Origin: an uncultured bacterium
GTDB lineage: Bacteria > Bacillota > Clostridia > Oscillospirales > Oscillospiraceae
NCBI GenBank assembly: GCA_947383145.1
Contig: CANDCH010000004.1
Span: 1-64,000 of the forward strand
Direction of reading: 5' to 3'
DNA: 64,000 bases
This document shows positions 1 through 16,420 of this stretch, one piece after another. The number at the start of each line of letters is the position of its first letter. Positions within the stretch are counted from its first letter, which is position 1. A program made the position numbers and the translations under genes. The notes under the pieces were generated by a model, which saw only the letters and a program-made list of their open reading frames with translations, was not told the DNA's origin and made no database searches.

Positions 1-583
1 CCAAGGCGATGGAGCGCTTCACGGTATCCAGGTCGCCGCCCAGACGGCGGTACCATTCTGGGGTGAAGCCTTTGAGGTTGATGTTGGCCGCATCAATCAG
101 TGGGAGAAGCGCCCGCCAGGGCTGTTCGTTCATCGTTCCGTTGGTGACCAGAACATTGACCATACCCCGGTCATGGACGAGGGCGGCGCAGTCCCGGACG
201 TACTCATATCCCACCAGCGGCTCGTTGTAGGTGTAGGCCACGCCGATGTTTCCCCTGGGAATCAGCTCCACCGCCTTGTTCGCCAGCTGTTCCGGGGATA
301 TGTCCACCGTCTGAATTTTGCCGTCTCCGGCCATAGATATCTCGTGATTTTGGCAGAAGGGACAGCGGAGGTTGCAGCCGAAGCTGCCCACAGATAAGAT
401 CAAGCTCCTGGGCCGGAAACGGCGCAGGGGCTTTTTTTCGATGGGGTCCAGGGCCAGGCTGGTGAGTTTTCCGTAATTCAGCGGCACAACGGCCCCATCC
501 CGGCAGACCCTGGCCCGGCAGAAGCCGGTCTGGCCCTCCGCCAATTGGCAGCGGTGGAAGCACAATTCACACTTAGCGCTCAT
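1..583 (-). CDS. amrS: AmmeMemoRadiSam system radical SAM enzyme (3' part beyond window)
   Basis: The reading frame opens at the ATG at 583 and runs off the left edge without a stop, so 194 residues are visible. The radical SAM cluster-binding motif is CNLRCPFC (Cys70, Cys74, Cys77). It is preceded by a Cys-rich N-terminus (CELCFHRC) and a KKPLRRF segment typical of the PflA-like AmrS branch, and followed by the TYNEP and NINLKGF segments of the barrel. The start overlaps the stop of the upstream Memo-AMMECR1 gene as ATGA, indicating translational coupling. The family is a cytoplasmic SAM-dependent radical enzyme whose substrate is, as far as I know, not established. Family assignment is firm; function is open. 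Confidence 0.9.
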   Translation of the reverse strand, partial: MSAKCELCFHRCQLAEGQTGFCRARVCRDGAVVPLNYGKLTSLALDPIEKKPLRRFRPRSLILSVGSFGCNLRCPFCQNHEISMAGDGKIQTVDISPEQLANKAVELIPRGNIGVAYTYNEPLVGYEYVRDCAALVHDRGMVNVLVTNGTMNEQPWRALLPLIDAANINLKGFTPEWYRRLGGDLDTVKRSIAL

Positions 584-1968: not shown

Positions 1969-2011
1969 AAGAATCGCTCCTCTGTAAAAAATTCTGACAA
2001 GCGAAATTACT

Positions 2012-2425
2012 TCACAGAACCATGACCAGAGTGCCCACACCAATCAGGACGCACCCGATCACCGACTTTGGCGTGAATTTTTCGTGGAGAAACACCGCCG
2101 CTAGCACCAGGGTGATGACCACGCTGAGTTTGTCGATGGGAACCACTTTGGATACCTCGCCGATCTGGATGGCGCGGTAGTAGCACAGCCAAGACGCGCC
2201 AGTGGCCAGCCCGGACAGGATGAGGAACAGCCAGCTTTTACGGCTGATCTCCGGGATGCCGCCCTGGGTGTTGGTGAGGAACACCATGCCCCAGGCCATG
2301 GCTACCACCACCATGGTGCGGATGGCGGTGGCCAGGTTGGAGTTGACGCCGTCGATGCCCACTTTGGCGAGGATGGAGGTGAGGGCGGCGAATACGGCGG
2401 AGAGAAGGGCAAAGATGAACCACAT
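2012..2425 (-). CDS. Half-size EamA/DMT-family transporter
   Basis: A 137-residue very hydrophobic protein with about four to five predicted membrane helices, the size of the single-EamA-domain members of the drug/metabolite transporter superfamily that work as dimers. The last helix carries the usual LHEKFTPKSVIGxxLIxxG signature. The ATG at 2425 is preceded by AGGAGTGG; a longer frame back to 2479 lacks a ribosome site. It lies 43 bases upstream of the Memo-AMMECR1 gene on the same strand, so the three genes may share one message. Substrate cannot be told from sequence. Confidence 0.85.
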   Translation of the reverse strand: MWFIFALLSAVFAALTSILAKVGIDGVNSNLATAIRTMVVVAMAWGMVFLTNTQGGIPEISRKSWLFLILSGLATGASWLCYYRAIQIGEVSKVVPIDKLSVVITLVLAAVFLHEKFTPKSVIGCVLIGVGTLVMVL

Positions 2426-2455
2426 AACGACCACTCCTATGAAGTTTCTGTCCAT

Positions 2456-2484
2456 AGTGTAGCACGCTGGAGGCTGCATGACAA
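2456..2484 (-). promoter_or_regulatory. Candidate sigma-A promoter for the EamA gene
   Basis: On the minus strand TTGTCA (2484-2479) and TACACT (2461-2456) are 17 bases apart, about 30 bases before the chosen ATG. Confidence 0.5.
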
Positions 2485-2506
2485 TCCCAGAATGTCCAAC
2501 AAGGTA

Positions 2507-2535
2507 TTTTCAAGTGGAACTTTTTGTGATAAAAT
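2507..2535 (+). promoter_or_regulatory. Candidate promoter for the hsd operon
   Basis: TTTTCA (2507-2512) and TAAAAT (2530-2535) are separated by 17 bases and end 38 bases before the hsdM ATG, in a locally AT-rich patch. The promoter is back to back with that of the EamA gene. Confidence 0.5.
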
Positions 2536-2573
2536 ATGAATGGAATTTTACCGCCGAAAGGACGCGCAGCAAT

Positions 2574-4070
2574 ATGATTACAGGCGAACTGAAAAACAAA
2601 ATCAACGCCCTATGGGAAATTTTCTGGACCGGCGGTATTACCAACCCGCTGGACGTGGTGGAGCAGATGACCTACCTCATGTTCATCCACGATTTGGACG
2701 AAACGGACAACCTCCGCGCCAGGGAAAGCGCCATGCTTGGGCTGGACCACCAGAGCATTTTTGCGGAGAAAGTGCGAATCGGGGAGCGTACCGTCTCTGG
2801 AAACCAACTCAAATGGTCCGTGTTCCATGACTTTCCCGCCGAAAAGATGTACGCTGTCATGCAGGAGCAGGTGTTCCCCTTCATCAAGAGCCTTCACGGT
2901 GACAAGGCCAGCGCCTACGCCAAATACATGGACGACGCCATTTTCAAAATTCCCACGCCGCTGATGTTGGACAAGGTGGTCACGGCGCTGGACGGCATCT
3001 ATGAGCAGATGGCCCAGGCACGGGAGGGCGATGTCCGGGGTGATGTGTATGAATTCCTGCTGTCCAAGATCGCCACCGCCGGGGTGAACGGCCAGTTCCG
3101 TACCCCGCGGCACATTATTAAAATGATGGTGGAGCTCATGGCCCCCGGCCCGGAGGAAGTGATCTGCGACCCGGCCTGCGGCACGTCGGGTTTCCTGGTG
3201 GCGGCGGGGGAGTACCTCAAGGAGCACCATAAACAGGAGGTCTTTTTTGACCGGCAGAAGAAAGACCACTACATGAACCATATGTTCCACGGCTTCGACA
3301 TGGACCGCACCATGCTGCGCATCGGGGCCATGAACATGATGACCCATGGGGTGGCGAATCCCTTCATCGAGTACCGGGACAGCCTGTCCGACCAGAACCC
3401 GGACCGGGAAAAGTATACCCTGATCCTGGCAAATCCGCCCTTCAAAGGCAGCTTGGACGCGGACATCGTGTCCGCCGACCTGCTGAAGCTGTGCAAGACG
3501 AAGAAGACGGAGCTGCTGTTTCTGGCCCTGTTCCTGCGGATGCTCAAGGTGGGCGGGCGCGGGGCGGTCATCGTGCCGGACGGGGTGCTGTTCGGTTCGT
3601 CCAAGGCCCACAGGGACATGCGCCGGGAGCTGGTGGACCACAACCGGCTGGAGGCGGTGATCTCCATGCCCTCCGGGGTGTTCAAGCCCTACGCCGGGGT
3701 GTCCACCGGGGTGCTGGTGTTCACCAAAACCGGCCACGGCGGTACGGACAAGGTGTGGTTTTATGATATGCGCGCCGACGGGTTCAGCCTGGACGACAAG
3801 CGCGCCCCCGTGGCGGACAGCGACATTCCCGACATTGTGGCCCGGTTCCACCACCGGGCGGCGGAGGAGGGGCGGGCCCGCACAGAGCGGTCTTTCCTGG
3901 TGCCCCGGGAGGAGATCGTGGAAAACGGGTACAACCTGTCCATCAACAAGTATAAGAAGACGGAGTACGTGCCGGTGGAGTACCCGCCCACCAGCGAAAT
4001 CTTTGCGGAATTGAGGCAGCTGGAGGCAGAGATTCAGAAGGGGCTGGAGGAATTGGAGGGGATGGTGTGA
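2574..4070 (+). CDS. hsdM: Type I restriction-modification DNA methyltransferase subunit
   Basis: A 498-residue adenine-N6 methyltransferase. It has the HsdM N-terminal helical domain, the SAM-binding motif DPACGTSGFL near residue 198 and the catalytic NPPF motif near residue 286. It forms the M2S complex with HsdS and, with HsdR, the restriction complex. Start chosen at ATG 2574 (AAAGGAC ahead, MITGELKNK is a normal HsdM N-terminus) rather than the frame extension to 2478. The stop shares one base with the hsdS start (TGATG). Codon use is GC-rich like the flanks, in contrast to hsdS. Confidence 0.95.
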   Translation: MITGELKNKINALWEIFWTGGITNPLDVVEQMTYLMFIHDLDETDNLRARESAMLGLDHQSIFAEKVRIGERTVSGNQLKWSVFHDFPAEKMYAVMQEQVFPFIKSLHGDKASAYAKYMDDAIFKIPTPLMLDKVVTALDGIYEQMAQAREGDVRGDVYEFLLSKIATAGVNGQFRTPRHIIKMMVELMAPGPEEVICDPACGTSGFLVAAGEYLKEHHKQEVFFDRQKKDHYMNHMFHGFDMDRTMLRIGAMNMMTHGVANPFIEYRDSLSDQNPDREKYTLILANPPFKGSLDADIVSADLLKLCKTKKTELLFLALFLRMLKVGGRGAVIVPDGVLFGSSKAHRDMRRELVDHNRLEAVISMPSGVFKPYAGVSTGVLVFTKTGHGGTDKVWFYDMRADGFSLDDKRAPVADSDIPDIVARFHHRAAEEGRARTERSFLVPREEIVENGYNLSINKYKKTEYVPVEYPPTSEIFAELRQLEAEIQKGLEELEGMV

Positions 4071-5206
4071 TGGCGAGATTGGGGGATATTGCTACGTATA
4101 TCAATGGATATGCGTTTAAGCCATCGGACTGGTCTGATACCGGGCTTCCGATTATCAGGATTCAAGATTTGACTGGAAATTCATATCAGGCAAACCGATA
4201 CAATGGCGAGTATGACAAACGATATGAAGTTAATGACGGTGATATTTTGATATCGTGGTCTGCCAGCCTTGGTATATATATTTGGGGAGGCGAAAAAGCC
4301 GTTCTGAATCAGCATATTTTTAAAGTTGTTTTTGATAAAACAGAAATCAACAAAAGTTTTTTTGTCTATCAAGTTCAAAATATATTGGAAAATGCGGCTT
4401 CACAAGCGCATGGCGCAACAATGAAGCATCTCACAAAGCCCATATTTGATTCGCTGCCGTTTCATATGCCGACTTTAAAGGAGCAACAATATGTTGCCGC
4501 AGTACTGGACAAAATTAGTAACTTGATTTCTCTACGCAAACAACAGCTTGCCAAACTGGACGAGTTGGTCAAAGCGCGGTTTGTGGAGATGTTTGGAGAT
4601 ATGTTGTTGAATCCCCACTTATGGCCCGAAACCGCCTTAGATGCTGTGGCTGATATTGTATCTGGAATTACGAAAGGTCGAAAGACACAGAGTAGCGAAT
4701 TGTTTGAAGTGCCGTATATGGCCGTTTCTAATGTCAAAGAGGGTTACATTGATTGGACAACTGTTAAAACAATTATGGCTACCAAGTCAGAGATTGACCA
4801 ATACCGCTTAATGCCTGATGATGTGCTTATGACAGAGGGTGGTGATCCTGACAAGCTAGGGCGTGGTGCTATCATTCGGGAACCACTTGAGAATTGTATC
4901 CACCAGAATCACATTTTCCGAGTGCGGCTTGATAGAAATACAATTTTACCTGAATTTTTTGCCGAATACTTACAACACCAGAAAGCGAAGAGGTACTTTT
5001 TGAGGTGTGCTAAACAGACAACGGGAATTGCTAGCATTAATATGAAACAGCTCCGGGCATTGCCTGTCTTGGTTCCAGCTATTGAAGCTCAGAAAATATT
5101 TGCAGATTTTGTTACGGAAGTAGGCCGACAAAAGTTGACAATCCAACAAGGTTTGGATAAACTGGAAGTGCTGAAAAAATCGCTGATGCAGAAATATTTT
5201 GGGTAG
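4070..5206 (+). CDS. hsdS: Type I restriction-modification specificity subunit
   Basis: A 378-residue DNA-recognition subunit. It has two target-recognition domains (about 1-150 and 190-330), each followed by a conserved helical spacer: LKEQQYVAAVLDKISNLI with QLAKLDELVKARFVEMFGD in the middle, and LEVLKKSLMQKYFG at the end. GGAGGG lies 9 bases before ATG 4070; a GTG one codon earlier is possible. The gene is visibly AT-rich compared with hsdM and hsdR, as expected where specificity genes are exchanged by recombination. The recognition sequence cannot be predicted. No second or inverted hsdS copy lies in the window. Confidence 0.93.
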   Translation: MARLGDIATYINGYAFKPSDWSDTGLPIIRIQDLTGNSYQANRYNGEYDKRYEVNDGDILISWSASLGIYIWGGEKAVLNQHIFKVVFDKTEINKSFFVYQVQNILENAASQAHGATMKHLTKPIFDSLPFHMPTLKEQQYVAAVLDKISNLISLRKQQLAKLDELVKARFVEMFGDMLLNPHLWPETALDAVADIVSGITKGRKTQSSELFEVPYMAVSNVKEGYIDWTTVKTIMATKSEIDQYRLMPDDVLMTEGGDPDKLGRGAIIREPLENCIHQNHIFRVRLDRNTILPEFFAEYLQHQKAKRYFLRCAKQTTGIASINMKQLRALPVLVPAIEAQKIFADFVTEVGRQKLTIQQGLDKLEVLKKSLMQKYFG

Positions 5207-5216
5207 GGTGGTACGA

Positions 5217-5810
5217 ATGACATCATTTAAAATAACGATTGAAGGGAAATATGGAGTCAAGACTTATCAAGAAACAAAGAATACATACGATTGGATAATC
5301 CGTTCTTTACGTAAAGCGGGCCTGGACTGCACCAAACTGGAAATCAAATTCCTGTTTGATCTAGGGGCTATATCATGTTCATGCAACTCAATAGAAGAAT
5401 TTGTTTCAAATGCTTATGGCGCATCTGAATACTCTTTAACCGATATGAGCATTTGTGTGGTGGGAAATACAACTGGAGTTGTTTTTGTGTCTGTTAACCA
5501 TAAGAATCAACTTTATATCAGCGTAGATAATAAGAATAGCTTAGAGCACATAGTAGATTTACTAAATAAAACAACGCTGAGCGAAAGCGAAATTAATGAA
5601 GCAGTTTCTGTTACATTTATCGGATCACAGTACAATAATGCCCCAGCAATCAGCGGAAATAATAACACAGTGAATATCACGTCCCACAATGAAGAACCAA
5701 AAATTAAGCAGTGGATAAAGGCGGTTGCGCAAAATATTCTTGCCAATTGGATTTGGTACTTATTAACTATTGCGGCTACTGCTGCTATAACTTACTTTGC
5801 CACTAGATGA
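5217..5810 (+). CDS. Unknown AT-rich membrane-anchored protein within the hsd operon
   Basis: A 197-residue protein that I do not recognise. The first 140 or so residues look soluble and mixed alpha/beta, followed by a short SGNNNTVNIT segment (about 145-154) and a basic stretch. A single C-terminal hydrophobic helix (about 172-193, WIWYLLTIAATAAITYFA) suggests a tail-anchored inner-membrane protein facing the cytoplasm. It sits 10 bases after hsdS and its 3' end abuts hsdR, so it is co-transcribed. Its AT-richness matches hsdS, not hsdM or hsdR. The context suggests a defence accessory or toxin-like effector; that is inference only. Confidence 0.75.
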   Translation: MTSFKITIEGKYGVKTYQETKNTYDWIIRSLRKAGLDCTKLEIKFLFDLGAISCSCNSIEEFVSNAYGASEYSLTDMSICVVGNTTGVVFVSVNHKNQLYISVDNKNSLEHIVDLLNKTTLSESEINEAVSVTFIGSQYNNAPAISGNNNTVNITSHNEEPKIKQWIKAVAQNILANWIWYLLTIAATAAITYFATR

Positions 5811-5829
5811 CCAAGTAGAAGGTGCAATT

Positions 5830-8800
5830 ATGACCAACTTCGACTTCCTCCTCTCCGACCCCCAATTTGCCCCCTTCGCTCAGGCTGCCGTGGCCGCGGA
5901 GCAGATCTACCAGATCGACCCCGCCGCCTGCATCCTGTCCTGCCGCCGGGCCATGGAATCCGCCGTCAAATGGATGTACTCCGTGGACGGCAGCCTCACC
6001 CTGACCTTCGACACCCGGCTGGCGGCGCTCATGGACAGCGGCAACTTCCGGGACATCGTGGGGGAGGATGTGTGGAAGCGGATGAAGCTGGTCCGGGTGC
6101 TGGGCAACCAGGCCGCCCACGGCGGGAAAAAGCTCACCCGGGAGCAGGCGGCGGTGTGCCTGGAAAACCTCTACATATTCCTGGATCAGGCGGCCTATTT
6201 CTACGCCAAGGATTATACCGAGGGAAAGTTTGATCCGGCCCTGCTGGACGCCAAGCCCGAGCCCGCCCCGGCCCCCGTGCCGGAGGTGGAGCTGGAGCGG
6301 CTGATGGAGGAGAACCGCGCCCTGCGCGCCCAGCTCACCGCCCGCCGGGAGGAGCAGCAGACCACCTATGTGCCCAAGCCGCTGGAGCTCACCGAGTACC
6401 AGACCCGAAAAATCTACATCGACGCCATGCTGGCTGACGCGGGCTGGACCGAGGGCAAGGATTGGCTGGGCGAGGTGGAGCTGTTCGGTATGCCCAACAA
6501 GTCCGGGGTGGGCTATGCGGATTATGTGCTTTACGGTGACGATGGCCGTCCCCTGGCGGTGGTGGAGGCAAAACGGGCCTGTGTGGATGTGGTCCAGGGC
6601 CGCCAGCAGGCCAAGCTGTACGCCGACCTTTTGGAACGGAAGCATGGCCGCCGCCCGGTGGTGTTCCTCACCAACGGCTTCGACACCCGCATCGACGACG
6701 GGCGCTACCCGGAGCGGAAGGTGGCGGCGGTCTACTCCAAGCGGGACCTGGAAAAGTGGTTCAATTTGCAAACTATGCGCCTCAGTTTAAAAAATATAGT
6801 GGTACGCAAGGACATCGCCGGGCGGTACTACCAGGAGGGGGCGGTCAAGGCGGTGTGCGATGACTTTGACCGCAAAAACCGCCGGAAGGCCCTGCTGGTC
6901 ATGGCCACCGGCTCGGGTAAGACTCGCACCGTAATCGCCTTGTGCGACGTGCTGCTCCGCCACGGCTGGGTGAAGAACATCCTGTTTCTGGCTGACCGAA
7001 ACTCGCTGGTTACCCAGGCCAAGCGCAGCTTTGCCGCCCTGTTGCCCGACCTGTCTGTGACCAATTTGTGCGAGGAAAAGGACAATTACACCGCCCACTG
7101 CGTGTTTTCCACCTACCAGACCATGATGAACTGCATTGATGGGGTACGGGACGGGGAAGGGAAGCTGTTCACCTGTGGTCATTTCGACCTGGTGATCTGC
7201 GACGAGGCCCATCGCTCCATCTATAACAAGTTCCGGGATATTTTCACCTATTTTGACGCGCCGCTGGTGGGCCTCACCGCCACGCCCAAGGACGAAATCG
7301 ACAAGAACACCTACGAGGTGTTCGAGCTGGAGAGCGGCGCGCCCACCTATGGCTATGAGCTGGCCCAGGCGGTAACGGACGGCTTTCTGGTAGACTTTCT
7401 TTCAGTGGAGACAAAGCTCAAGTTTTTGGAGCAGGGCATCGTTTACGACGAGCTGTCCGAGGAGGACAAGGCGGCCTATGAGGACACCTTTGGGCGGGAC
7501 GGGGAGGCCCCGGACAGCATTTCTTCCTCTGCGCTGAACGAGTGGGTGTTCAATGAGGACACCATTCGGGAGGTGCTCCATGTCCTTATGACCAACGGGC
7601 TGAAAATTGACTATGGCACCAGGCTGGGCAAGACGATCATCTTTGCCAAGAACCACCTCCACGCGGAGAAGATCATGGAGGTGTTTGGCAAATGCTATCC
7701 CGAGTTTCCCGGCTTTGCCAAGGTCATCGACAACTATACAAACTACGCCCAGAGCACCATCGACGAGTTCTCCGAGGGGAAAAAGCTGCCCCAGATTGCC
7801 ATCTCCGTGGATATGCTGGACACCGGCATCGATGTGCCGGAGGTGCTGAACCTGGTCTTTTTCAAAAAGGTGATGAGTAAGGCGAAGTTCTGGCAGATGA
7901 TTGGCCGTGGGACCCGCCTGTGTCCCGGGCTGTTGGATGGCGAGGACAAAAAGAAATTCTATATCTTCGACTTCTGCGGTAATTTTGAGTTTTTCCGCAT
8001 GAATAAGGGCAGATCCGCCGCCAGACAGACAACCCTCCAGGGGGCGTTGTTCAAGCTGAAAGCCCAGATGGCCTTCAAGCTCCAGGACTTGGCCTATCAG
8101 ACAAAAGAGCTGATTGAATTCCGGCGGGAACTGGTGTCTGACATGATGTGTAAGGTGCAAGAGCTTAACAGAGATAATTTTGCCGTGCGTCAGCATTTGA
8201 AGTATGTGGAACGGTTTTCAGCCCCGGAAAGCTACGCCGCTCTCAGCTATGAGGACACGTTAAACATGGAGGAGGAGCTGGCGCCGCTGATCCTCCCGGA
8301 TGCGGATGACCCCAAAGCCCTGCGGTTCGACGCGCTGCTGTACGGCATAGAGTTAGCTGTTCTGGCGGGCACGCCCTATTCCCGCGCCAGGAAGGATTTA
8401 ATTCAAAAAGTACGGGGGATCGCAGGGGTTGCCAACATCCCGGAAATCCAGGCGCAGTCTGAATTGATTGAGAAGATACTCCACACAGATTACCTGGAAA
8501 CTGCCGGAGTCCACGAATTTGAGCATATCCGGGCGTGCCTGCGGGATTTGATGAAGTATATCCCCAGAGAGAGGGACCGCTACGACACCAATTTCGATGA
8601 TGAGATTTTGTCCATGGATTGGAAGGAAGCGGAGCTGGAAAATGACGATCTGCAAAACTACAAGGCCAAGGCGGAATTATATGTGCGTCAGCATCAAGAC
8701 GAGGCGGTCATTGCCAAGCTGCGGGGAAATGTCCCGCTGACAGCCGGGGATGTGGAGGCTTTGGAGCGCATTCTTTGGAGTGAGGTGGGTAACCGTCAGG

Positions 8801-9123
8801 AATATGAGGAGGAATGCGGCCAGAAGCCGCTGGGAGAATTTGTGCGGGAGATCGTTGGCCTGGATATGAACGCCGCGAAAACAGCCTTTTCCGACTACCT
8901 CACCGATGCGAATTTGGACAGTCGGCAGATCTATTTTGTGAATCAAATTATAGAGTATATTGTCCGAAACGGCATGTTGACGGATCTGTCTGTCCTCCAG
9001 GAGGCACCCTTTACCGACCAGGGCAGCGTGGTGGAAGTGTTTACCGACCTTTCTGTCTGGATGGGTATCCGAGCTGTGATCGACAGGATCAACTCAAATG
9101 CGTTGGGAACAAAAAATGTGTAG
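5830..9123 (+). CDS. hsdR: Type I restriction endonuclease/translocase subunit
   Basis: A 1097-residue motor and nuclease subunit. Residues about 1-110 form a DUF4145-like N-terminal domain. A nuclease core of the D-ExK type follows (YADYVLYG and VVEAKRA near residue 244). The superfamily 2 helicase has Walker A MATGSGKTR near 357, DEAHRS near 457 and motif VI QMIGRGTRLCPG near 690. The C-terminal region resembles the EcoEI R C-terminal domain. The ATG at 5830 has AAGGTG ahead and overlaps nothing; an upstream in-frame start at 5797 lies inside the preceding gene. With hsdM and hsdS this is a complete, apparently functional type I system. Confidence 0.95.
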   Translation: MTNFDFLLSDPQFAPFAQAAVAAEQIYQIDPAACILSCRRAMESAVKWMYSVDGSLTLTFDTRLAALMDSGNFRDIVGEDVWKRMKLVRVLGNQAAHGGKKLTREQAAVCLENLYIFLDQAAYFYAKDYTEGKFDPALLDAKPEPAPAPVPEVELERLMEENRALRAQLTARREEQQTTYVPKPLELTEYQTRKIYIDAMLADAGWTEGKDWLGEVELFGMPNKSGVGYADYVLYGDDGRPLAVVEAKRACVDVVQGRQQAKLYADLLERKHGRRPVVFLTNGFDTRIDDGRYPERKVAAVYSKRDLEKWFNLQTMRLSLKNIVVRKDIAGRYYQEGAVKAVCDDFDRKNRRKALLVMATGSGKTRTVIALCDVLLRHGWVKNILFLADRNSLVTQAKRSFAALLPDLSVTNLCEEKDNYTAHCVFSTYQTMMNCIDGVRDGEGKLFTCGHFDLVICDEAHRSIYNKFRDIFTYFDAPLVGLTATPKDEIDKNTYEVFELESGAPTYGYELAQAVTDGFLVDFLSVETKLKFLEQGIVYDELSEEDKAAYEDTFGRDGEAPDSISSSALNEWVFNEDTIREVLHVLMTNGLKIDYGTRLGKTIIFAKNHLHAEKIMEVFGKCYPEFPGFAKVIDNYTNYAQSTIDEFSEGKKLPQIAISVDMLDTGIDVPEVLNLVFFKKVMSKAKFWQMIGRGTRLCPGLLDGEDKKKFYIFDFCGNFEFFRMNKGRSAARQTTLQGALFKLKAQMAFKLQDLAYQTKELIEFRRELVSDMMCKVQELNRDNFAVRQHLKYVERFSAPESYAALSYEDTLNMEEELAPLILPDADDPKALRFDALLYGIELAVLAGTPYSRARKDLIQKVRGIAGVANIPEIQAQSELIEKILHTDYLETAGVHEFEHIRACLRDLMKYIPRERDRYDTNFDDEILSMDWKEAELENDDLQNYKAKAELYVRQHQDEAVIAKLRGNVPLTAGDVEALERILWSEVGNRQEYEEECGQKPLGEFVREIVGLDMNAAKTAFSDYLTDANLDSRQIYFVNQIIEYIVRNGMLTDLSVLQEAPFTDQGSVVEVFTDLSVWMGIRAVIDRINSNALGTKNV

Positions 9124-9174
9124 CTATTTTCTTCTGAGTGTGCTATTGTGTTTTGCTGACAGGAGGCAGAACAC

Positions 9175-9456
9175 ATGAAAGCGATTCTGAAAAAACTCTA
9201 CGATAGTTTTTATATCCCTTTGCCCCTCGCTGATGCGCAGCAAGAAGCTGAGGATGCACACCGTCAACTCATTCAACGGCTGAGCAAACCAGAACGGAAG
9301 CTGGTGCTGCATATTATTGACGCAAAAGACCACATCACGGAGGAGCGTTCTATTGACAGCTTCATCTGCGGCTTTGAGTTGGCATGGAAGTTGTCCACAG
9401 AATTAAACGCATATGACAGAAGCCGTCCAGCCGATGAGACCGGACGGCTTCTTTGA
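9175..9456 (+). CDS. DUF6809-like small protein
   Basis: A 93-residue protein beginning MKAILKKLYDSFYIP, with a charged helical middle and a C-terminal FICGFELAWKLSTEL segment. This layout matches the small DUF6809-type proteins carried by many clostridial mobile elements (recognised from memory, not searched). AGGAGG lies 6 bases before the ATG. It probably marks the left part of the integrated element. Function unknown. Confidence 0.65.
   Translation: MKAILKKLYDSFYIPLPLADAQQEAEDAHRQLIQRLSKPERKLVLHIIDAKDHITEERSIDSFICGFELAWKLSTELNAYDRSRPADETGRLL
9420..9453 (+). terminator. Possible terminator overlapping the DUF6809 gene end
   Basis: A 9-bp perfect stem (AAGCCGTCC at 9420-9428 with GGACGGCTT at 9442-9450) followed by a short T-rich stretch. 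It overlaps the last codons of the gene. The weak T tract makes termination uncertain. Confidence 0.45.
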
Positions 9457-9844
9457 CAGCAGAGCCTATTTGTTCTGATTCGCAGCGGATTTACGCTGTT
9501 TCCGGCGAACCAGCGGAACACCCAGCACCTCCACCGCAAACGCAGCGTAATCCTACAACAGAAAATATGATTGGCCAATTTTGGAGCAACTGCGTCATGT
9601 CAAACCATGTCGAACGATTTTTCGTGACAAATTCTGTCGGAAGGAGTGTAATATCAATAAGCGAAAGCGAATCTCCGCAGCTTTCCGGTGAGGTTCACAC
9701 CGATGTGTGACCTCTGACATTCATGGGCCGCACAGGGCATTTGAACCCCACTGTACGATGAAATATCCATGAGTGTTCCACAGTATTTGGCGCTGTGCCG
9801 GCAGCGCGGGTGTGCGCCTTTTCGTGTAAGCGGAAAGGACGTCT
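9457..9844. other. 388-bp non-coding stretch with gene remnant and inverted repeat
   Basis: No intact gene. On the minus strand 9552-9466 encodes 28 residues (DYAAFAVEVLGVPLV then RRKQRKSAANQNK, stop) with normal codon use but no start, probably the tail of a decayed gene. An imperfect inverted repeat (GAGGTTCACAC 9690-9700 with GTGTGACCTC 9705-9714, loop CGAT) lies upstream of the sigma-like gene and could be a regulatory site. The rest shows nothing I can name. Confidence 0.5.
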
Positions 9845-10231
9845 ATGAACGACACGGTCGTTACGTATCAAGGCCAGCAAGTATCAGTGTCAAAGGAGGC
9901 CGCAGACTTTTTAGAGCGGGACCGCCGCCATATGCGGGCGCAGTACAAGCGGGATCAGAGGCACCTGAGTAGAAGGGATTTTGAAACGGTGCTGTCCAGC
10001 TATGGGGACGTTGAGCGTGTGACGGAGGATACCGCGCTGAAGAACCTCCAGCTTGAAACACTGCGGGAAATGGTGGACGGACTGGGTGAGCGAGATCGCA
10101 GGTTGATTTCCCTCCGATACGACGAGGAATTGTCTATGGAGGCAATCGGCAGGCAGCTGGGCGTATCCAGAATGGCCATCTTAAAGCGGCTGAGAACGCT
10201 GAACCGAAAATTGAACCGCGCTGTCACCTGA
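9845..10231 (+). CDS. Sigma-70 region-4-like regulator of the mobile element
   Basis: A 128-residue protein. The N-terminal half is charged (FLERDRRHMRAQYKRDQRH). The C-terminal half (about 70-125) is a sigma-70 region 4 type helix-turn-helix with LGERDRRLISLRYDEEL and SMEAIGRQLGVSRMAILKRL. It lacks region 2, so it is either a partial sigma factor or a DNA-binding regulator. AAAGGA precedes the ATG. Similar short proteins are common at the head of clostridial integrative elements. A strong terminator follows immediately. Confidence 0.75.
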   Translation: MNDTVVTYQGQQVSVSKEAADFLERDRRHMRAQYKRDQRHLSRRDFETVLSSYGDVERVTEDTALKNLQLETLREMVDGLGERDRRLISLRYDEELSMEAIGRQLGVSRMAILKRLRTLNRKLNRAVT

Positions 10232-10250
10232 CAGCGCGGTTCAATTTTTT
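10211..10250 (+). terminator. Strong intrinsic terminator after the sigma-like gene
   Basis: Perfect 16-bp stem (TTGAACCGCGCTGTCA 10211-10226, TGACAGCGCGGTTCAA 10229-10244) followed by six T. The left arm overlaps the last codons of the gene. Confidence 0.9.
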
Positions 10251-10451
10251 ATTTTGCCATGGTTTACAAAACCGTTCCGAGTGTCCTAAGTCAACGAGGG
10301 GTGTGTAAATTCCGAAATATATTTTTTAAATAGGAACGGCCCGTTCAGGTTTAGCTGTTACAATCCAACCGCAGGCAGCATCGCGTTCCTGGCTGGCCGT
10401 CCAGTCGGACGCAATATGCCCCTCAATACACAGGAACGGAGGATACAATTT

Positions 10452-11432
10452 ATGAAACAACAACTCAAGTTGCTCACCATGAGCGACATCCACGCCGAGC
10501 AGATGCGCTGGCTGTGGGAGCCGTATCTGCCCAGGGGGAAGATCACCATTATCCAGGGTGACCCCGGCGATGGCAAGACCACCTTCGTGCTGGCACTGGC
10601 AGCACTGCTGACCCAGGGGCTTCCCATGCCGGGCGGCAGTGCGGCGGCACCACCCATGAACGTGATTTATCAGACGGCGGAGGACGGTCTGGCGGACACG
10701 ATCCGTCCCCGGCTGGACGCGCTGGGCGCGGACTGCTCCCGGGTGCTGGTCATCGATGAAAGCGAACGGGAGCTGACATTGGATGACCAGCGGCTGGCCC
10801 AGGCCATCCGGCAGACGGGCGCGGGGCTGGCCGTGCTGGACCCCATCCAGGCGTACCTTGGCAACAACGTGGATATGCACCGGGCCAACGAAGTGCGTCC
10901 CATCTTCAAACGGCTGGGACAACTGGCGGAGCGGACCGGCTGCGCCATCGTGCTGGTGGGGCACATGAATAAGATGCAGGGCGCCAAGTCCGCGTACCGT
11001 GGTCTGGGCTCCATCGATTTCCGGGCGGCAGCCCGGAGTGTGCTGCTGGTAGGCCGCTCCAAAGATGACGATGACCTGCGCGTGGTGGTTCACGACAAGA
11101 GCAGTCTCGCGCCGGAGGGTCCGGCAATTTTGTTCTCTCTGGATTCAGACCTGGGTTTTCAGTGGAAGGGGTTCTGCGATGCCACCGCCAGCGAACTGCT
11201 CTCCAGCAGCGGCCCCAGCACGACCAAGACGGAACAGGCGGAGCAGCTTCTCCAAGATTTGCTGGTAGGAGGTGAGCTGGCATCAGATGAGTTGGTGCGC
11301 CGCGCTTCCACAATGGGAATCTCAGAACGGACGCTGAAAATCGCCAAGCAGAATCTGGGGGTGACCGCCGTCCGCCGTGGCGACCGCTGGTACTCATACC
11401 TGCCGCAAGAGGGTAAGGGGGTAAAGTGCTAA
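10452..11432 (+). CDS. RepA-like AAA ATPase (RecA fold)
   Basis: A 326-residue P-loop ATPase. Walker A is GDPGDGKTT near residue 36, Walker B-like AVLDPIQAYL near 130, then a VLVGHMNK segment and a serine-rich link to a C-terminal winged-helix-like domain (LASDELVRRASTMGISERTLKIAKQNLGV). This is the architecture of RepA-type replicative helicases and AAA_25 ATPases carried by plasmids and mobilizable elements, so replication of the excised circle is the likely role. GGAGG lies 8 bases before the ATG. A GAACGG-C-CCGTTC palindrome at 10334-10346, about 100 bases upstream, may be an operator. Confidence 0.85.
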   Translation: MKQQLKLLTMSDIHAEQMRWLWEPYLPRGKITIIQGDPGDGKTTFVLALAALLTQGLPMPGGSAAAPPMNVIYQTAEDGLADTIRPRLDALGADCSRVLVIDESERELTLDDQRLAQAIRQTGAGLAVLDPIQAYLGNNVDMHRANEVRPIFKRLGQLAERTGCAIVLVGHMNKMQGAKSAYRGLGSIDFRAAARSVLLVGRSKDDDDLRVVVHDKSSLAPEGPAILFSLDSDLGFQWKGFCDATASELLSSSGPSTTKTEQAEQLLQDLLVGGELASDELVRRASTMGISERTLKIAKQNLGVTAVRRGDRWYSYLPQEGKGVKC

Positions 11433-11638
11433 GGACATTGCCCGGTTGCCTTCTTGCCCGCCGTGCCCCTGTGTCGGCCTGTGTGCGGCCCCGTGTCCGC
11501 TTTTGCGGGGCGAGGCGGGGAATGACCCGCAAAACGGTTCGGGCACGGTGTGCGCCCTTTGTGGGCCGTTTGTGGGGAGCACCCAGTTTACGATATTCCA
11601 GAAGCGCCCCGTTGGGGCGGATGCCTACCTCGCCGGGG

Positions 11639-11744
11639 CCCCGCAAAGCCGACCTCTGGCTTTGTGGGGAGAGGAGGCGCAGCGGAGTGAGTGCGCCCTG
11701 CCGCTTGCGGCGGGGCGCGGGATGCGGAGCTTGTGCCGACGAGG
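11639..11744 (+). repeat. Hairpin plus 79-nt repeat, copy 1
   Basis: A 12-bp hairpin (CCCCGCAAAGCC 11639-11650 with GGCTTTGTGGGG 11658-11669, one G-T pair) runs into the 79-nt repeat 11666-11744. The repeat has an inner stem CTGCCG/CGGCGG and a closing pairing GGCGCA/TGTGCC. Aligned without gaps to copy 2 there are 67 matches in 79. Confidence 0.75.
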
Positions 11745-11770
11745 TGGGGCAAGCATCGCGTCCGGCTATA

Positions 11771-11801
11771 CGGCGCTGGCTGCCGGTGGCAGCCAGCGCC
11801 G
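11771..11801. repeat. 14-bp perfect inverted repeat, candidate oriT hairpin
   Basis: CGGCGCTGGCTGCC (11771-11784) and its exact reverse complement (11788-11801) are separated by GGT. It lies between the two 79-nt repeats and has no T tract, so it is not an ordinary terminator. Relaxase recognition hairpins have this form; the assignment is inference. Confidence 0.5.
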
Positions 11802-11870
11802 ACCGAGCCGAAGGCGAGAACGCCCGCACTCGCCGGGGCGCTGCCCCGGCCCCCCTGCCCCTAAAGGGGT

Positions 11871-11980
11871 CCCCATCGAAGCCCAGCGAAGCGGGTTCGA
11901 TGGGGAGAGGAGGCGCAGCGAAATGAGCGAGCCCTGCCGTTTGCGGCAGAGCGAGGGATATGCAGCTTGCGCCGACGAGG
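11871..11980 (+). repeat. Hairpin plus 79-nt repeat, copy 2
   Basis: A hairpin (CCCCATCGAA 11871-11880 with TTCGATGGGG 11896-11905, with further inner pairing) runs into the 79-nt repeat 11902-11980. The stem sequence differs completely from that of copy 1 although its place and closing GGGG are the same. The inner stem is CTGCCG/CGGCAG and the closing pairing GGCGCA/TGCGCC. It ends 14 bases before the mobC ATG. Confidence 0.75.
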
Positions 11981-11994
11981 GAGAGAGGAGTTTA

Positions 11995-12309
11995 ATGCAG
12001 AAAAAGAAAACCGAAATCATCACCGCCAGGATGACCCCGGCGGACAAAAAAGCCATCCGCCAGCGTGCCAAGGCCGCCGGCATGACCGTCACCGACTATC
12101 TCGCCACCTGCGCGCTGGGAAAGAAAATTGTCCGGGTGGAGGGGCTGGACGATCTCCTCTCCGAGCTGAAAGCCCAGGGCCGCAACCTCAACCAGCTCAC
12201 CACCCTGGCCAACATGGGGCGGATCACCGTCCTACGCGGGGATGACCTTGTGCAAGAGTACACCAGGCTGTGCGACGTAATGAGCGTGTTGGTTCGGGAG
12301 GTGCGCTGA
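11995..12309 (+). CDS. mobC: Mobilization protein MobC-like
   Basis: A 104-residue basic protein with a ribbon-helix-helix-like N-terminus (ARMTPADKKAIRQRAKAAGMTVTDYLATCAL) and a C-terminal RNLNQLTTLAN-type segment typical of MobC relaxosome accessory proteins. It would help the relaxase bind and open oriT. AGGAG lies just before ATG 11995. The frame stays open far upstream, but that part is the structured repeat region. It overlaps the relaxase by ATGA-type coupling (stop 12307-12309, start 12309). Confidence 0.88.
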   Translation: MQKKKTEIITARMTPADKKAIRQRAKAAGMTVTDYLATCALGKKIVRVEGLDDLLSELKAQGRNLNQLTTLANMGRITVLRGDDLVQEYTRLCDVMSVLVREVR

Positions 12310-13301
12310 TGGCAACCTTCACCGCAATCCAGTGCAAGAAGCAGTCCGCCAGTTCCATGTGCGGCGTGATCGACTACGTGGAACAGGAGAAGAAAACCCG
12401 CTGGGGCGATGCGTGGCTGGTCACCGGGAGCAACTGCGTCCCACAGTCCGCCTTCATCGAGATGCAGATGACCAAGGAGCGCTTCCGCAAAACAGGAGGG
12501 ACACAGTTCTACCACTTCGTCCAGTCCTTCTCCGCCGATGACAATGTCACGCCCCAGGAAGTCAACGCCATCGGTCTGGAATTTGCGCAGAAGCAGTTCC
12601 CGGACTTCGAGGTGGTGGTCGCCACCCACGTTGACACCAGCCATCTGCACAACCACATGGTGGTGAACAGCGTCAGCCACAAGGACGGTCACAAGCTCCA
12701 TCAGAGCTACAGCGACCTGCTGACGCACCGCAAAGTGAACGATGAGATCTGTCTTGTCCACGGCCTGCAAGTGCTGGACGAGTGTGATCCACAAAAGAAA
12801 AAGAGGCGCATGAAGCCCGGCGAGTACCAAGCCGGCCTGCGTGGTGACAGCTGGAAGCTGGATCTCATCCAAGCTATCAACGAGGCACTGGAATACGCCA
12901 CCAGCCGGGAGAGCTTCATCGAAAACATGGAGGTGGAAGGTTACGAGGTATCCTGGTCTGACACCCGGAAGCACGTCACCTTCACCTGTCCCAATGGGCG
13001 CAAGTGCCGGGACAGCAGCCTCCACGATGAAACCTTCCTCAAGGAAAATCTTGAGATGCTGTTCCTCTATCGCCAGACCACGGGCTTCCGTCCCACCACC
13101 CCGGAGCCGGACGAGGGTTGGATGGGTGAGCTGGCCGCTGGATGGTTCCAGGTGGCGGCTGACCTGGAGCGTGACGATGAGTGGCAGCTCCCCACTCCGC
13201 CAACTTGGACGGACAGCAAGCAGCTCCGCAGAGAGGCGCTGAAGAAAATGGCCATGGGTCAGAAATTTGGTGGTGACCAACACTGGGAACAGACCATGTA
13301 A
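12309..13301 (+). CDS. Relaxase/mobilization nuclease
   Basis: A 330-residue relaxase of the MobP/PF03432 type. The N-terminal TAIQCKKQSASS and DYVEQEKK region holds the presumed catalytic tyrosine. The metal-binding three-histidine motif is HVDTSHLHNH near residue 105. The protein nicks at oriT and leads the strand into a recipient, with the transfer machinery supplied by another element because no conjugation genes are present here. It is shorter than many relaxases (400-500 residues) and ends soon after the nuclease domain, so a C-terminal domain is absent or lost. Confidence 0.88.
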   Translation: MATFTAIQCKKQSASSMCGVIDYVEQEKKTRWGDAWLVTGSNCVPQSAFIEMQMTKERFRKTGGTQFYHFVQSFSADDNVTPQEVNAIGLEFAQKQFPDFEVVVATHVDTSHLHNHMVVNSVSHKDGHKLHQSYSDLLTHRKVNDEICLVHGLQVLDECDPQKKKRRMKPGEYQAGLRGDSWKLDLIQAINEALEYATSRESFIENMEVEGYEVSWSDTRKHVTFTCPNGRKCRDSSLHDETFLKENLEMLFLYRQTTGFRPTTPEPDEGWMGELAAGWFQVAADLERDDEWQLPTPPTWTDSKQLRREALKKMAMGQKFGGDQHWEQTM

Positions 13302-13322
13302 AAAATTGATAGACTTGTGGAA

Positions 13323-13355
13323 GCGGGTGCGGTATATTGCTGGTACCGCATCCGC
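13323..13355. repeat. Inverted repeat after the relaxase gene
   Basis: GCGGGTGCGGTA (13323-13334) and TACCGCATCCGC (13344-13355) pair with one mismatch that can form G-T. There is no T tract after it, so termination is doubtful. It lies in the 193-bp gap between the relaxase and the next gene. Confidence 0.4.
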
Positions 13356-13494
13356 CTCCCGGACAAGAGGATCAAAATGAATATTCGCAAATGTCGAACC
13401 GAAATACAGATGGACATCAGATAGGAAAGGGGTAAATCAAATATCAAAGTAGGCCTGTCCGATGCATACCCTTGGAACAAAGGGGGCACGCGGG

Positions 13495-13722
13495 ATGGAG
13501 GAACGGGCGCGTCTGGTCGGAATCGAGCACGACCACAGGATTACCAAAGAGACGGACAACCAGTTCCTGTTTGAGTACCAGAGAGCCATCCTGCTGTCGC
13601 TGAAGGACAGCGGTGCGCTGGATGAGGCGCAATACCGGTATGCAGAAGAAAAACTGAAGGCTCAGCTTCGAGCATACATCAGAAAACAAAACAGCGCGAA
13701 AAAAAAGGGAGAGAGGCCATGA
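13495..13722 (+). CDS. Small SHOCT-like protein coupled to the recombinase
   Basis: A 75-residue charged protein. FEYQRAILLSLKDSGALDE followed by AQYRYAEEKLKAQL resembles a SHOCT-type oligomerisation helix pair, and the C-terminus is very basic (RAYIRKQNSAKKKGERP). Start chosen at ATG 13495, with GGGGG 7 bases upstream; an in-frame ATG at 13462 has no good ribosome site. The stop overlaps the recombinase start as ATGA. Size, charge and coupling would suit a recombination directionality factor, but this is inference. Confidence 0.65.
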   Translation: MEERARLVGIEHDHRITKETDNQFLFEYQRAILLSLKDSGALDEAQYRYAEEKLKAQLRAYIRKQNSAKKKGERP

Positions 13723-15461
13723 TGAAGGTGGCGTCCTACTGCCGGGTGTCCACCGACCGGGACGACCAAGCCAATTCCTTCGAGAGCCAGAAGCGCTACT
13801 TCAAGGAGTACATCGACCGCCAGCCGGATTGGGAGCTGTACCAGGTCTACGCCGACGAGGGCATCACCGGCACCTCAACCAAAAAGCGGGCGGCGTTCAA
13901 CCGCATGATTGCCGACGCCCATATGGGGAAGTTCCAGCTCATCCTTACCAAAGAGGTGAGCCGGTTTTCCCGAAACATTTTGGACACCATTTCCTACACC
14001 CGGGAGCTGAAAGCGCTGGGTGTGGGGGTGGTGTTCATGAACGACGGCATCAACTCCCTGGAGCCGGACGCGGAACTGCGGCTGTCCATCATGGGCTCCA
14101 TGGCCCAGGAGGAGAGCCGCAAGACCTCCAGCCGGGTGAAATGGGGCCAGACCCGGCGGATGGAGCAGGGGGTGGTGTTCGGCAGGTCCCTGCTGGGTTA
14201 CGATGTGAAGGGCGGCAAGATGACCGTCAACCCGGAGGGCGCGGAGATCGTCCGGCAGATTTTCCACAAGTACGGCATAGAGAAAAAGGGCACCTCCGTC
14301 ATCGCCCGAGAGCTGCGGGAGGCAGGGTACAAGTCGCTGACCGGGAACACAAAATGGTCCAACACCTACATCATCAAGGTGCTGAAAAACGAAAAGTACG
14401 TGGGCGACCTGGTGCAGAAAAAGACCATCACCCCGGATTACCTGAGCCACGCGAAAAAGTACAACCATGGGGAGGAGGAACTGGTGGTCATCCGGGATCA
14501 CCACGAGCCCATCATCAGCCGGGAACTGTGGGATATTGTCCAGTCGGAACTAAAAAAGCGGAACCGAAAAGGGAACTATGGCGGCGGACACTCCAACCGT
14601 TATGTGTTCAGCGGCAAGATCAAGTGCGGCGAGTGCGGAGCCAGCTTCGTCTCCCGGAAGAAGGTGCGGAAGGACGGCACCAGCTACCGGCGCTGGGGCT
14701 GCTTCACCGCCACCACGGAGGGGAACCGCCGCGAGGACATCCAGGGAAATGAGGTGGGCTGCGACATCGGGAAGATGCTCCGGGATGAGTTGGCCATGGA
14801 TATTTTGAAGCAGTCCCTGGCCTCGCTGCAAATGGACGTGAACGGAATTATCCAAAGTGTCACCGATATTGCAATGGAGGCAATTCAAGCAGGGGAGGAG
14901 CAGGAGATCGACCGCCCGGAGGCATTGGAGTATCAAATCGAGCAGCTCACCAGGAAAAAGGCCGACGTGCTTGACGCCTTCTTCTCCCGTCAGATCACCA
15001 AGGATGAGATGAAATTGGTGAATGAGCGGTACGACAAAGAGTTGGATGAGCTGCAAAACAGGTTAGAGGCGGCACGCTCCAAGGCAGGAATCTCCTACCA
15101 GCCGGATACCCTGCGAAAAGACATCCAGAACAAAATAACCGTCCTCGTGGACGGCGAGACAGACAGTGAAATCTTCTATAAAAACCTGCTGGATCACATG
15201 GTGGTCTACAAGGACAGACGGGTAGAAGTCCACCTGAACCTTTTACCGCAGAAATGGACGTTTATTTTGGAAAATATGAGGGATTTGAACAGGAAACTGG
15301 AGGGAAAAGGGGCCGTGAATGATGAGGTGTGCAAAAATGACCCCGCAGTGCCCGCCGAACTCACCCCCGAAAAACCCAGTGATTGCAACGGTTTGAGGCC
15401 GGTGTGCAAAAACGAACCCTCTGTGCCGATGTCAGTGAGCAGCCCTTTCAGTTCAGGGTAG
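13719..15461 (+). CDS. Large serine recombinase (integrase) of the mobile element
   Basis: A 580-residue protein. The resolvase catalytic domain (about 1-150) has the active-site serine in YCRVSTDRDDQ near residue 10 and the conserved Arg-rich SRFSRN and AQEESRKTSSRVKWG. The recombinase domain follows (GYDVKGG to about 300), then a zinc ribbon (KCGECGASF), then a coiled coil (about 400-460). The last 40 residues contain two VCKN(D/E)P repeats. The final dozen or so codons and the stop (15459-15461) lie in chromosomal cotJC sequence. It should catalyse integration and excision of the element. Confidence 0.93.
   Translation: MMKVASYCRVSTDRDDQANSFESQKRYFKEYIDRQPDWELYQVYADEGITGTSTKKRAAFNRMIADAHMGKFQLILTKEVSRFSRNILDTISYTRELKALGVGVVFMNDGINSLEPDAELRLSIMGSMAQEESRKTSSRVKWGQTRRMEQGVVFGRSLLGYDVKGGKMTVNPEGAEIVRQIFHKYGIEKKGTSVIARELREAGYKSLTGNTKWSNTYIIKVLKNEKYVGDLVQKKTITPDYLSHAKKYNHGEEELVVIRDHHEPIISRELWDIVQSELKKRNRKGNYGGGHSNRYVFSGKIKCGECGASFVSRKKVRKDGTSYRRWGCFTATTEGNRREDIQGNEVGCDIGKMLRDELAMDILKQSLASLQMDVNGIIQSVTDIAMEAIQAGEEQEIDRPEALEYQIEQLTRKKADVLDAFFSRQITKDEMKLVNERYDKELDELQNRLEAARSKAGISYQPDTLRKDIQNKITVLVDGETDSEIFYKNLLDHMVVYKDRRVEVHLNLLPQKWTFILENMRDLNRKLEGKGAVNDEVCKNDPAVPAELTPEKPSDCNGLRPVCKNEPSVPMSVSSPFSSG
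15326..15352. repeat. 27-bp direct repeat at the element end, copy 1
   Basis: Begins GGTGTGCAAAAATGACCCC. It matches copy 2 (15401-15427) except at a few positions, 75 bases away, inside the recombinase 3' end. Possibly part of the attachment-site architecture. Confidence 0.55.
15401..15427. repeat. 27-bp direct repeat at the element/chromosome junction, copy 2
   Basis: Begins GGTGTGCAAAAACGAACCC and ends at the point where cotJC sequence starts. Confidence 0.55.
15410..15432. other. Attachment junction of the element in cotJC
   Basis: Read on the minus strand, cotJC is intact through codon 64 (GAG at 15421-15419, in ...LLTDIGTE). The next codons do not continue the CotJC family sequence, which has a second Glu and LGHLEM there, and instead belong to the recombinase 3' end. 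The exact crossover cannot be fixed without the left junction. Confidence 0.75.
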
Positions 15462-15610
15462 GGCATGGCATACCGCTGGGATAGGTATCGCAGAGACGCG
15501 CCCAGTTCGCCGTCCGGTCCGCCATACTGGGAAATGATTACCGCCGCCAGCTTGGGGTTTGTGTTTTTAATGCGGACCGGGTATTGCAGCTTTTTCTCAT
15601 AGACAAACAT
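15419..15610 (-). pseudogene. cotJC: cotJC 5' fragment, interrupted by the mobile element
   Basis: The first 64 codons of a manganese-catalase-family spore coat protein: MFVYEKKLQYPVRIKN, then YGGPDGELGASLRYLSQRY, then GLLTDIGTE. The normal protein is close to 190 residues, and the ferritin-like metal ligands beyond residue 64 are missing. GAGGGGG precedes the ATG. The gene follows the CotJA-CotJB fusion by 2 bases. The frame stays open into the element to about 15206, but those residues are antisense to the recombinase. The 3' part should lie at the element's left end, which is not in this window. Confidence 0.85.
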
Positions 15611-15612
15611 AG

Positions 15613-16074
15613 TCAATCCCCCTCGCCGTTCTTGAATTCCCAGGGCCATGGATCATCCAGCCAGCGGTAGGCTTGGTCCTGTCCGGCGCTGAGCTTGGTC
15701 AGAGGGCCGTGCATCTCCTCATAGCGCTTCTTGGCCTCTCTGGCCATCTCCGCGTACTGCCGGAACAGTTGAAATGCCTCCGCGTCGTCCTGGTGGGTGT
15801 CCAGATAGAGCCCCAGCTCGGTGACCACAAACAGCAGCGCCTGGAGCTGGGTGGAGTGGCTGTCCGGCAGGGCTGCGGCCTCCGTTTTCAGATGGAACGG
15901 AAGGTTCAGGCCGGGAAAGACCGTCCCGTTCGCCAAGGCGTCGGCTTGGTTGTACTTCCGGCTGCCCTGTTGCTGAAAGGGGACATATGGCACCGCCAGA
16001 GGCGCGCAGGCGGGCATGGTGCCGCAGGCGTCCGCGCACGGGCGGGTGTTGGTTCCTCCATTATCAGGATTCAA
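15613..16074 (-). CDS. cotJB: CotJA-CotJB fusion spore coat protein
   Basis: A 153-residue protein. Residues about 25-60 match CotJA (YVPFQ...ALANGTVFPGLNLPF). Residues about 75-150 match CotJB (LLFVVTELGLYLDTHQDD, HGPLT, WLDDPWPWEF). The two are separate genes in Bacillus subtilis and most clostridia. The start is TTG at 16074, supported by AAGGAGG 8 bases upstream; no ATG fits. It is followed by cotJC. In B. subtilis the cotJ operon is made in the mother cell under sigma-E. Here a CATAAGCT about 50 bases upstream with GGCACACC 14 bases before it is at best a weak sigma-E match. Confidence 0.85.
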   Translation of the reverse strand: MNPDNGGTNTRPCADACGTMPACAPLAVPYVPFQQQGSRKYNQADALANGTVFPGLNLPFHLKTEAAALPDSHSTQLQALLFVVTELGLYLDTHQDDAEAFQLFRQYAEMAREAKKRYEEMHGPLTKLSAGQDQAYRWLDDPWPWEFKNGEGD

Positions 16075-16380: not shown

Positions 16381-16393
16381 TCAGAGACGCCGG

Positions 16394-16420
16394 AAAGGGT
16401 GGGCTTGTCCCACCCTTTTT
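16394..16420 (+). terminator. Attenuator-like terminator between scfA and scfB
   Basis: AAAGGGTGGG (16394-16403) and CCCACCCTTT (16409-16418), loop CTTGT, ending in five T (16416-16420). It would let the abundant peptide message outnumber that of the maturase. Confidence 0.8.

Follow-up and report, generated by a model that had tools for sequence, protein, structure and literature searches.

The cotJC locus and element 1

The window, meaning the whole 64,000-base stretch analysed here, is C4:1-64000 of the source genome (G000), an assembly of 2.48 Mb in 58 contigs that is 85% complete. A minus-strand frame starting at 15610 encodes positions 1-65 of the Mn_catalase/CotJC family (domain scan E 7.1e-19), beyond which the homology is lost. 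A profile search of the source genome with this family gave exactly three matches, each partial (Table 1), and the three pieces of the gene are all in frame, with codons 1-61 in the window, 62-135 on contig C52 and 136-198 on contig C31. The same search of the 85% complete assembly gave no second, intact cotJC; spoIVA is present. The cotJC gene of this bacterium is cut in three by two mobile elements.

Contig C4 ends at the left edge of the window, where C52 abuts it. C52 finishes with 55 bases identical to those with which the window begins, and the radical-SAM-like frame runs unbroken over the join. From this exact overlap, element 1 can be assembled as a 17.7 kb mobilizable-type element with a terminal large serine recombinase (LSR), consisting of 17,674 bases (C52 901-3147 plus window 1-15427). 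At both of its ends the core reads GG on the strand of cotJC and belongs to the DIGTEEL Gly codon; joining the two flanks across the core gives TDIGTEELGHLEM, which is wild-type and in frame.

The original prediction, made from the window alone, was that an element lies inside cotJC, and this is borne out, as the cotJC match ends at the recombinase-bearing junction and the rest of the gene lies beyond the element. The switch of frame noted there after 64 codons is real, although its position has to be moved, the likely exchange point being Gly codon 62 of DIGTEEL. The recombinase stop (15459-15461) does fall in cotJC DNA, as had been proposed, because the shared GG/CC core is at 15426-15427. 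The insert also passes the left edge, where C52 holds codons 62-135, but the single 3' half that was envisaged does not exist, since codons 136-198 are on C31. The 3' part looked for to the left of the window is therefore found, on C52 and C31, and neither of the two findings named as contrary to the prediction (no 3' half in the genome, or a second intact cotJC) was encountered in the 85% complete assembly. The accompanying suggestion, a skin-like restoration of cotJC, gains indirect support from purifying selection on the pieces in species with a common element, the developmental timing being presumed. The double cut of the gene here and its repeated use as a target at four sites go beyond that first reading.

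Table 1. Features of the split cotJC locus and of element 1 (window coordinates unless a contig or locus is named).
Feature	Location	Strand	Family, match or remark
Window portion of element 1	1..15427	.	
Radical-SAM-like ORF, extends into C52	1..583	-	frame continuous over join
AMMECR1 plus LigB-fold protein	580..2043	-	domain scan
EamA transporter	2012..2479	-	domain scan
Type I methylase HsdM	2478..4070	+	PF02384, PF12161
Type I specificity subunit	4067..5206	+	PF01420
Type I restriction subunit R-like	5797..9123	+	PF04851, PF08463, PF04313
DUF6809 protein	9175..9456	+	domain scan
Sigma-70 region 4-like regulator	9845..10231	+	PF04545
AAA ATPase	10416..11432	+	PF13481 1e-33
NikA-like mobilization protein domain ORF	11446..12309	+	PF21983 1.2e-22
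MobA/VirD2-type relaxase	12270..13301	+	PF03432 1.9e-37
86-aa ORF overlapping LSR1 start	13462..13722	+	0 Pfam families
LSR1, large serine recombinase, 580 aa	13719..15461	+	PF00239, PF07508, PF13408
Bases concerned in LSR1 tail change	15404-15461; L004 901-1087		
Element 1/cotJC junction, site B	15404..15450	.	core CC (GG on cotJC strand) 15426-15427
Partner junction, element 1	C52 (L004) 899-900		core CC
cotJC 5' match	15419-15610	-	model positions 1-65, E 1.7e-18
cotJC 5' piece	15426..15610	-	codons 1-62, to shared GG core in Gly codon of DIGTEEL
cotJC middle match	C52:676-903		model positions 62-150
cotJC 3' match	C31:1449-1610		model positions 147-199
Fused CotJA-CotJB frame, upstream of cotJC	15613..16074	-	PF11007, PF12652

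LSR1 has Resolvase, Recombinase and zinc-ribbon domains in the domain scan, and its final codons are read in cotJC DNA. In the integrated state about 11 codons come from there, and the circle would give a longer and different tail and a total of 631 aa; excision would thus rewrite the C-terminus of the recombinase. The 86-aa ORF has tblastn matches in 41 loci, the window included and some of them duplicate fetches, mostly directly upstream of an LSR and several kb away in a few loci, and it is a candidate LSR partner or directionality factor. The remaining cargo includes ABC-class ATPase genes in addition to the genes in Table 1. The protein encoded at 580..2043 is presumably of the AmmeMemoRadiSam type, and the adjacent radical-SAM-like ORF, whose C-terminal 99 aa on C52 have no Pfam match, is one that we take to be AmrS. 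A relaxase, a NikA-like protein and an LSR are present in element 1, and its own transfer machinery is absent among the ORFs scanned, which (short ORFs being partly covered) contain no phage or conjugation-machinery domain. This gene content would best suit an integrative element of mobilizable type.

On the other side of the junction, CotJA and CotJB form one fused frame, and a comparable single frame occurs in L006. Farther on (16237-17814) are a small Cys-rich peptide and then a radical SAM/SPASM protein, a pair that we assume to resemble the SCIFF system.

Element 2 at site C

The second element sits at another site of cotJC, site C, and carries a recombinase (LSR2) that is distantly related to LSR1. 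It spans from C52, where its response-regulator end lies, to C31, where its LSR2 end lies, with the middle unassembled; the element is incomplete here, since the sequences at its contig ends retrieved the known contigs C52 and C31 and no others. Joining its flanks gives EDMAAEQKARLTYDN, again wild-type. The sequence shared at site C is GC..CAGA; GGCGAT was considered as the core and rejected, the sequence actually shared being GC..CAGA.

Recurrence at four sites

The Mn-catalase/CotJC family model has matches in 237 of 300 genomes of an Oscillospiraceae family sample. Eighty genomes with no full-length match and a best E weaker than about 1e-46, picked by eye, were searched again (G056, E 2e-4, is not among them), and in at least 57 of the 80 both sides of site A, B or C are seen among the matches listed. 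Breaks at B number 30, at A 20 and at C 11, with three genomes broken at A and B and one at A and C; these counts are taken from the HMM end coordinates of 150 matches listed out of a longer set. The 23 genomes without both sides of a site are uncounted, and the site C break of G111 falls outside the limits used. With the source genome (B and C) included, at least 58 of the 237 family-matching genomes have a split cotJC. Six genomes of the same genus are listed with a match, of which G000, G066, G145 and G202 are split and G247 and G285 have a full-length gene. Pieces on the same contig are about 3 to 43 kb apart; elsewhere they are on separate contigs.

The site B motif is DIGTEELGHLEM and the site C motif EDxAAEQKAR, and site D follows HFQRFGE. 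Site D was spotted by divergent tails, and the missing tail was found past an LSR-bearing element in G053 and G072; for the other D-type breaks, no tail was found within the fetched DNA. Each of the four sites lies within about seven codons of one of the motifs that we take, from Mn-catalases, to hold the Mn ligands.

The recurrence is also seen from the side of the recombinase. Relatives of LSR1 were fetched from public species genomes, regardless of cotJC, as 57 loci with 6 kb flanks, and 54 of the 57 have cotJC pieces in the flanks, with a piece that begins or stops at site B or close to it, although some alignments spill over slightly in a few cases. Two of the other three loci (L132 and L156) stop at a contig end, and the third, L151, is a true exception since it has 6 kb on both sides and no cotJC piece. 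The loci come from Oscillospiraceae, Lachnospiraceae, Butyricicoccus, Agathobaculum and Anaerocolumna, among others. In viral contigs, a cotJC piece is present in the fetched DNA of 3/3 LSR1 relatives and 6/11 LSR2 relatives. The fetched DNA of IMG/VR contigs L184, L185 and L186 holds the middle piece alone (codons about 63-136), so that sites B and C both seem to be occupied there.

Some loci have features of their own. In L159 (Lachnospiraceae, 2928-7769), the element inside cotJC contains a further cotJC that is intact, shares 75% identity with the joined outer gene and is preceded by a frame that by eye is CotJB-like; this inner gene may be a replacement copy within the interrupting element. 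The smallest site B elements (L066, L067 and L068, all of one genus and about 3 kb) consist of little more than an LSR and one gene, presumably akin to that for pyrimidine-nucleoside phosphorylase. In G143 (C1 71980-129852), cotJC is in pieces at sites A and C and the last of them is reversed, which suggests an inversion between elements.

YabG (PF05582) gave no match in 120 family genomes, and SpoIVA was therefore used as the control for splitting. SpoIVA has matches in 100 of these 120 genomes with no element-type split, its partial cases being a frameshift-like overlap (G046) and contig ends (G023, G037, G103), with an element in none. In the same 120 genomes, cotJC is split with both sides seen in 22, plus G000.

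Recombinases of the elements

An LSR frame is present in the fetched DNA of 31/31 split-cotJC genomes whose elements were fetched whole or at both ends. It is mostly at the junction, which it abuts in element 1, and is 2-4 kb away in G066, G155 and G039 and likewise in loci L075, L098 and L100. A tree of 44 LSRs has one clade per site: A with 5 rows (100/99), B with 22 (100/99), C with 8 (100/100) and D with 7 (100/100). The LSRs of G032 and G150 are site B users from a separate lineage. The tree carries long-branch warnings and several of its rows are partial proteins, so the site clades are used here and the deeper joins are not. The clades by site and the separate G032/G150 lineage indicate that several LSR lineages came to use one gene.

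Selection on the split gene

Forty joined genes (39 distinct loci, G181 being the same as L134) were used for dN/dS, and all are free of stops as far as site D (L148 as far as site C). Ten match rows had been reported with an internal stop; in all ten genomes, three of which (G007, G091, G200) belong to the joined set and seven of which were checked separately, the stop lies outside the cotJC coding part. Seven close same-site pairs from five groups, three of them supplied by L131, L133 and L134, have dS of 0.28-0.81 and omega of 0.005-0.098 over 175 codons. For intact genes, 19 of 30 fetched full-length matches could be compared, the other 11 not fitting the motif by which frames were cut; two pairs have omega of 0.028 and 0.039, and the remaining pairs with dS below 1.2 have 0.10-0.21. 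Pairs split at one site but not closely related have omega of 0.086-0.19 at dS below 1.2 (G039-G214, 0.19), and such distant pairs tell nothing of selection after insertion.

Descent of a shared element is claimed for three pairs (G053-G198, G166-G260 and G089-G214) and not for L131-L133, L152-L154 or G066-G145. The joined genes of the three pairs have dS of 0.48-0.81 and omega of 0.005-0.020, and each piece is constrained separately (Fisher p 2e-06 to 1e-34). Synonymous/nonsynonymous differences are 18.0/1.0 in the 5' piece and 26.0/0.0 in the 3' piece of G053-G198, 14.5/1.5 and 41.0/4.0 in G166-G260, and 54.0/4.0 and 8.0/0.0 in G089-G214. LSR dS is 0.90 against 0.70 for the frame upstream of cotJC (the cotJAB position) in G053-G198 and 0.73 against 0.59 in G166-G260, and the elements of G089-G214 are collinear with gene dS of 0.28-0.73, somewhat under the 0.81 of cotJC. 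The LSRs of the three pairs are themselves constrained (omega 0.087, 0.177 and 0.126), although that of G260 has a broken C-terminal frame. One would expect a gene that stays interrupted to lose constraint, if only in its 3' piece; the most straightforward interpretation is that the cell makes the joined protein. In L131-L133 the constraint on the 3' piece is weaker than in other pairs (omega 0.14, p 1e-3). The element genes of G080-G290 have diverged less than cotJC itself, a sign of recent transfer. In L106, the closest relative of element 1, the LSR and the 86-aa ORF are matched, and the 6 kb flank has no match to the MobA, NikA, AAA ATPase, HsdR or HsdS of element 1.

Proposed mechanism and alternatives

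Directly seen are the insertions, the in-frame pieces with matching cores, the LSR genes that the elements carry, breaks recurring at four sites, and purifying selection on the two pieces in pairs with a common element. We think it probable, if well short of assured, that cotJC is a docking gene which is rejoined in frame by LSR-mediated excision in the sporulating mother cell. One LSR would insert a mobilizable-type element at a 2-base core within the conserved Mn-ligand motif DIGTEELGHLEM at site B, and another LSR would bring a second element into the EDxAAEQKAR motif of site C. When the cell sporulates, each recombinase would remove its own element precisely in the mother cell, probably with the help of a directionality factor, the rejoined cotJC would give a catalase-type coat protein, and the germ line within the spore would retain the elements. 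It is from the comparison of sequences that we infer that excision happens, that it is precise in the cell and linked to the mother cell, and which protein serves as directionality factor. In the three pairs that share an element, the purifying selection seen on each piece favours precise excision that would restore cotJC, as with skin, SPbeta and gin. A search of viral_contigs with the attP pattern expected of the excised circle of element 1 gave no match.

It is also conceivable that cotJC is an ordinary insertion hotspot, the conserved DNA of a dispensable gene, and that the gene is inactivated with its frames intact because the insertions are recent. Conserved motifs are usual targets of integrases, and the elements of G080-G290 are clearly young. 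Moreover, the accessible text of PMC12122855 describes B. subtilis cotJC mutants as having no apparent defect, and excision may therefore not be needed. We nevertheless regard a hotspot as unlikely, as both pieces are constrained in the three element-sharing pairs, the 40 joined genes are stop-free and the ten reported stops lie outside the coding part. Excision, if real, could instead be stochastic or go with transfer and not with sporulation, and a subpopulation of cells whose cotJC is restored would suffice for selection. Mobilization genes are present on element 1, and yin of C. botulinum is described, in the part of PMC10747680 available, as excised in a fraction of the population at all time points. 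A scan for mother-cell promoters upstream of 65 LSRs recognised sigE-like sequences in 0/65 and sigK-like sequences in 1/65 (shuffled means 0.1 and 0.5), and the same scan missed its positive control, the region upstream of cotJA (0/21), so that it weighs neither for nor against a sporulation promoter. However, selection would then have to work through a minority of cells, and several elements of 3-6 kb have, as judged by eye, no mobilization gene, which makes this alternative quite improbable in our judgement.

There is very little likelihood that the pieces act as separate polypeptides and that the gene functions without excision. An in-frame start codon does lie inside the element for some 3' pieces (G098, G260), but the breaks are at four different metal-ligand motifs of a single domain and the 3' pieces are as short as about 60 codons at site C and about 23 at site D. 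That the split genes are assembly chimeras has next to no probability and is already contradicted by single-contig and complete-chromosome records. The G000 assembly is indeed fragmented, and some of the 57 genomes have the two sides on different contigs, yet the same layout is found within single contigs, among them the one-contig genome G098 and the complete chromosomes of loci L152 and L154, and SpoIVA has no comparable splits.

Developmental excision of the elements remains the preferred reading. A broader form of it, on which we are evenly divided, is that at least four LSR lineages converged on four metal-ligand motifs and that the elements, up to two per gene, would behave as DNA-level introns removed only in the mother cell. 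If this is true, islands can reside in the germ line without burdening the spore, because they are removed only in a mother cell that is doomed. One gene is split, at fixed sites and sometimes twice, in about a quarter of the sampled family-matching species, and the cargo of the elements includes restriction systems. Were excision part of development, spore formation across much of a large bacterial family would routinely involve rearranging DNA, and the persistence of islands in conserved genes would be explained. Isolates with split cotJC loci exist, among them Anaerocolumna sedimenticola CBA3638 (L154), Anaerocolumna sp. MB42-C2 (L152) and Agathobaculum massiliense (L148), and direct testing is therefore possible.

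Comparison with known systems

Like skin, SPbeta, vfbin, gin and yin, element 1 lies within a sporulation gene, carries its own site-specific recombinase and has a core whose joining restores the frame. In the sources as available, the interrupted sporulation genes known so far are scattered cases: sigK, spsM, spoVFB, gerE and yabG. The skin element of sigK in B. subtilis and C. difficile is, in the accessible part of PMC5025042, likewise an LSR element splitting a sporulation gene whose joining restores the frame; its target is a regulator, whereas here the target is a coat Mn-catalase gene with several sites, two elements per gene and excision that is presumed. SPbeta likewise splits a spore-envelope gene, spsM, and is excised in sporulation (PMC4191935, as far as its available text goes), but it is an active phage, while element 1 encodes a relaxase and a restriction system and its scanned ORFs contain no phage domain. 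Element 1 also resembles gin in gerE, which the available text of PMC5595907 gives as a non-phage element with restriction-modification genes, a serine recombinase and a short core (9 bp); three recombinases use one site there, in contrast to four sites and four LSR clades in cotJC. As described in the accessible part of PMC10747680, yin splits another clostridial sporulation gene, yabG, with a recombinase-bearing element, and is reported as unique to one strain, whereas the splitting of cotJC recurs across a family. The phi027 prophage of C. difficile also adjoins a CotJC-family gene, but the available portions of PMC11222575 and PMC12122855 place that gene beside the prophage or downstream of attR and describe no interruption or restoration. 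In the open-access literature (titles and beginnings of abstracts, subscription papers and preprints lying outside this set), no element inside cotJC is described. Gene interruption of the skin type is already known; as far as these searches show, its scale here, the four sites in one gene, the double insertions and the site-specific LSR clades are new.
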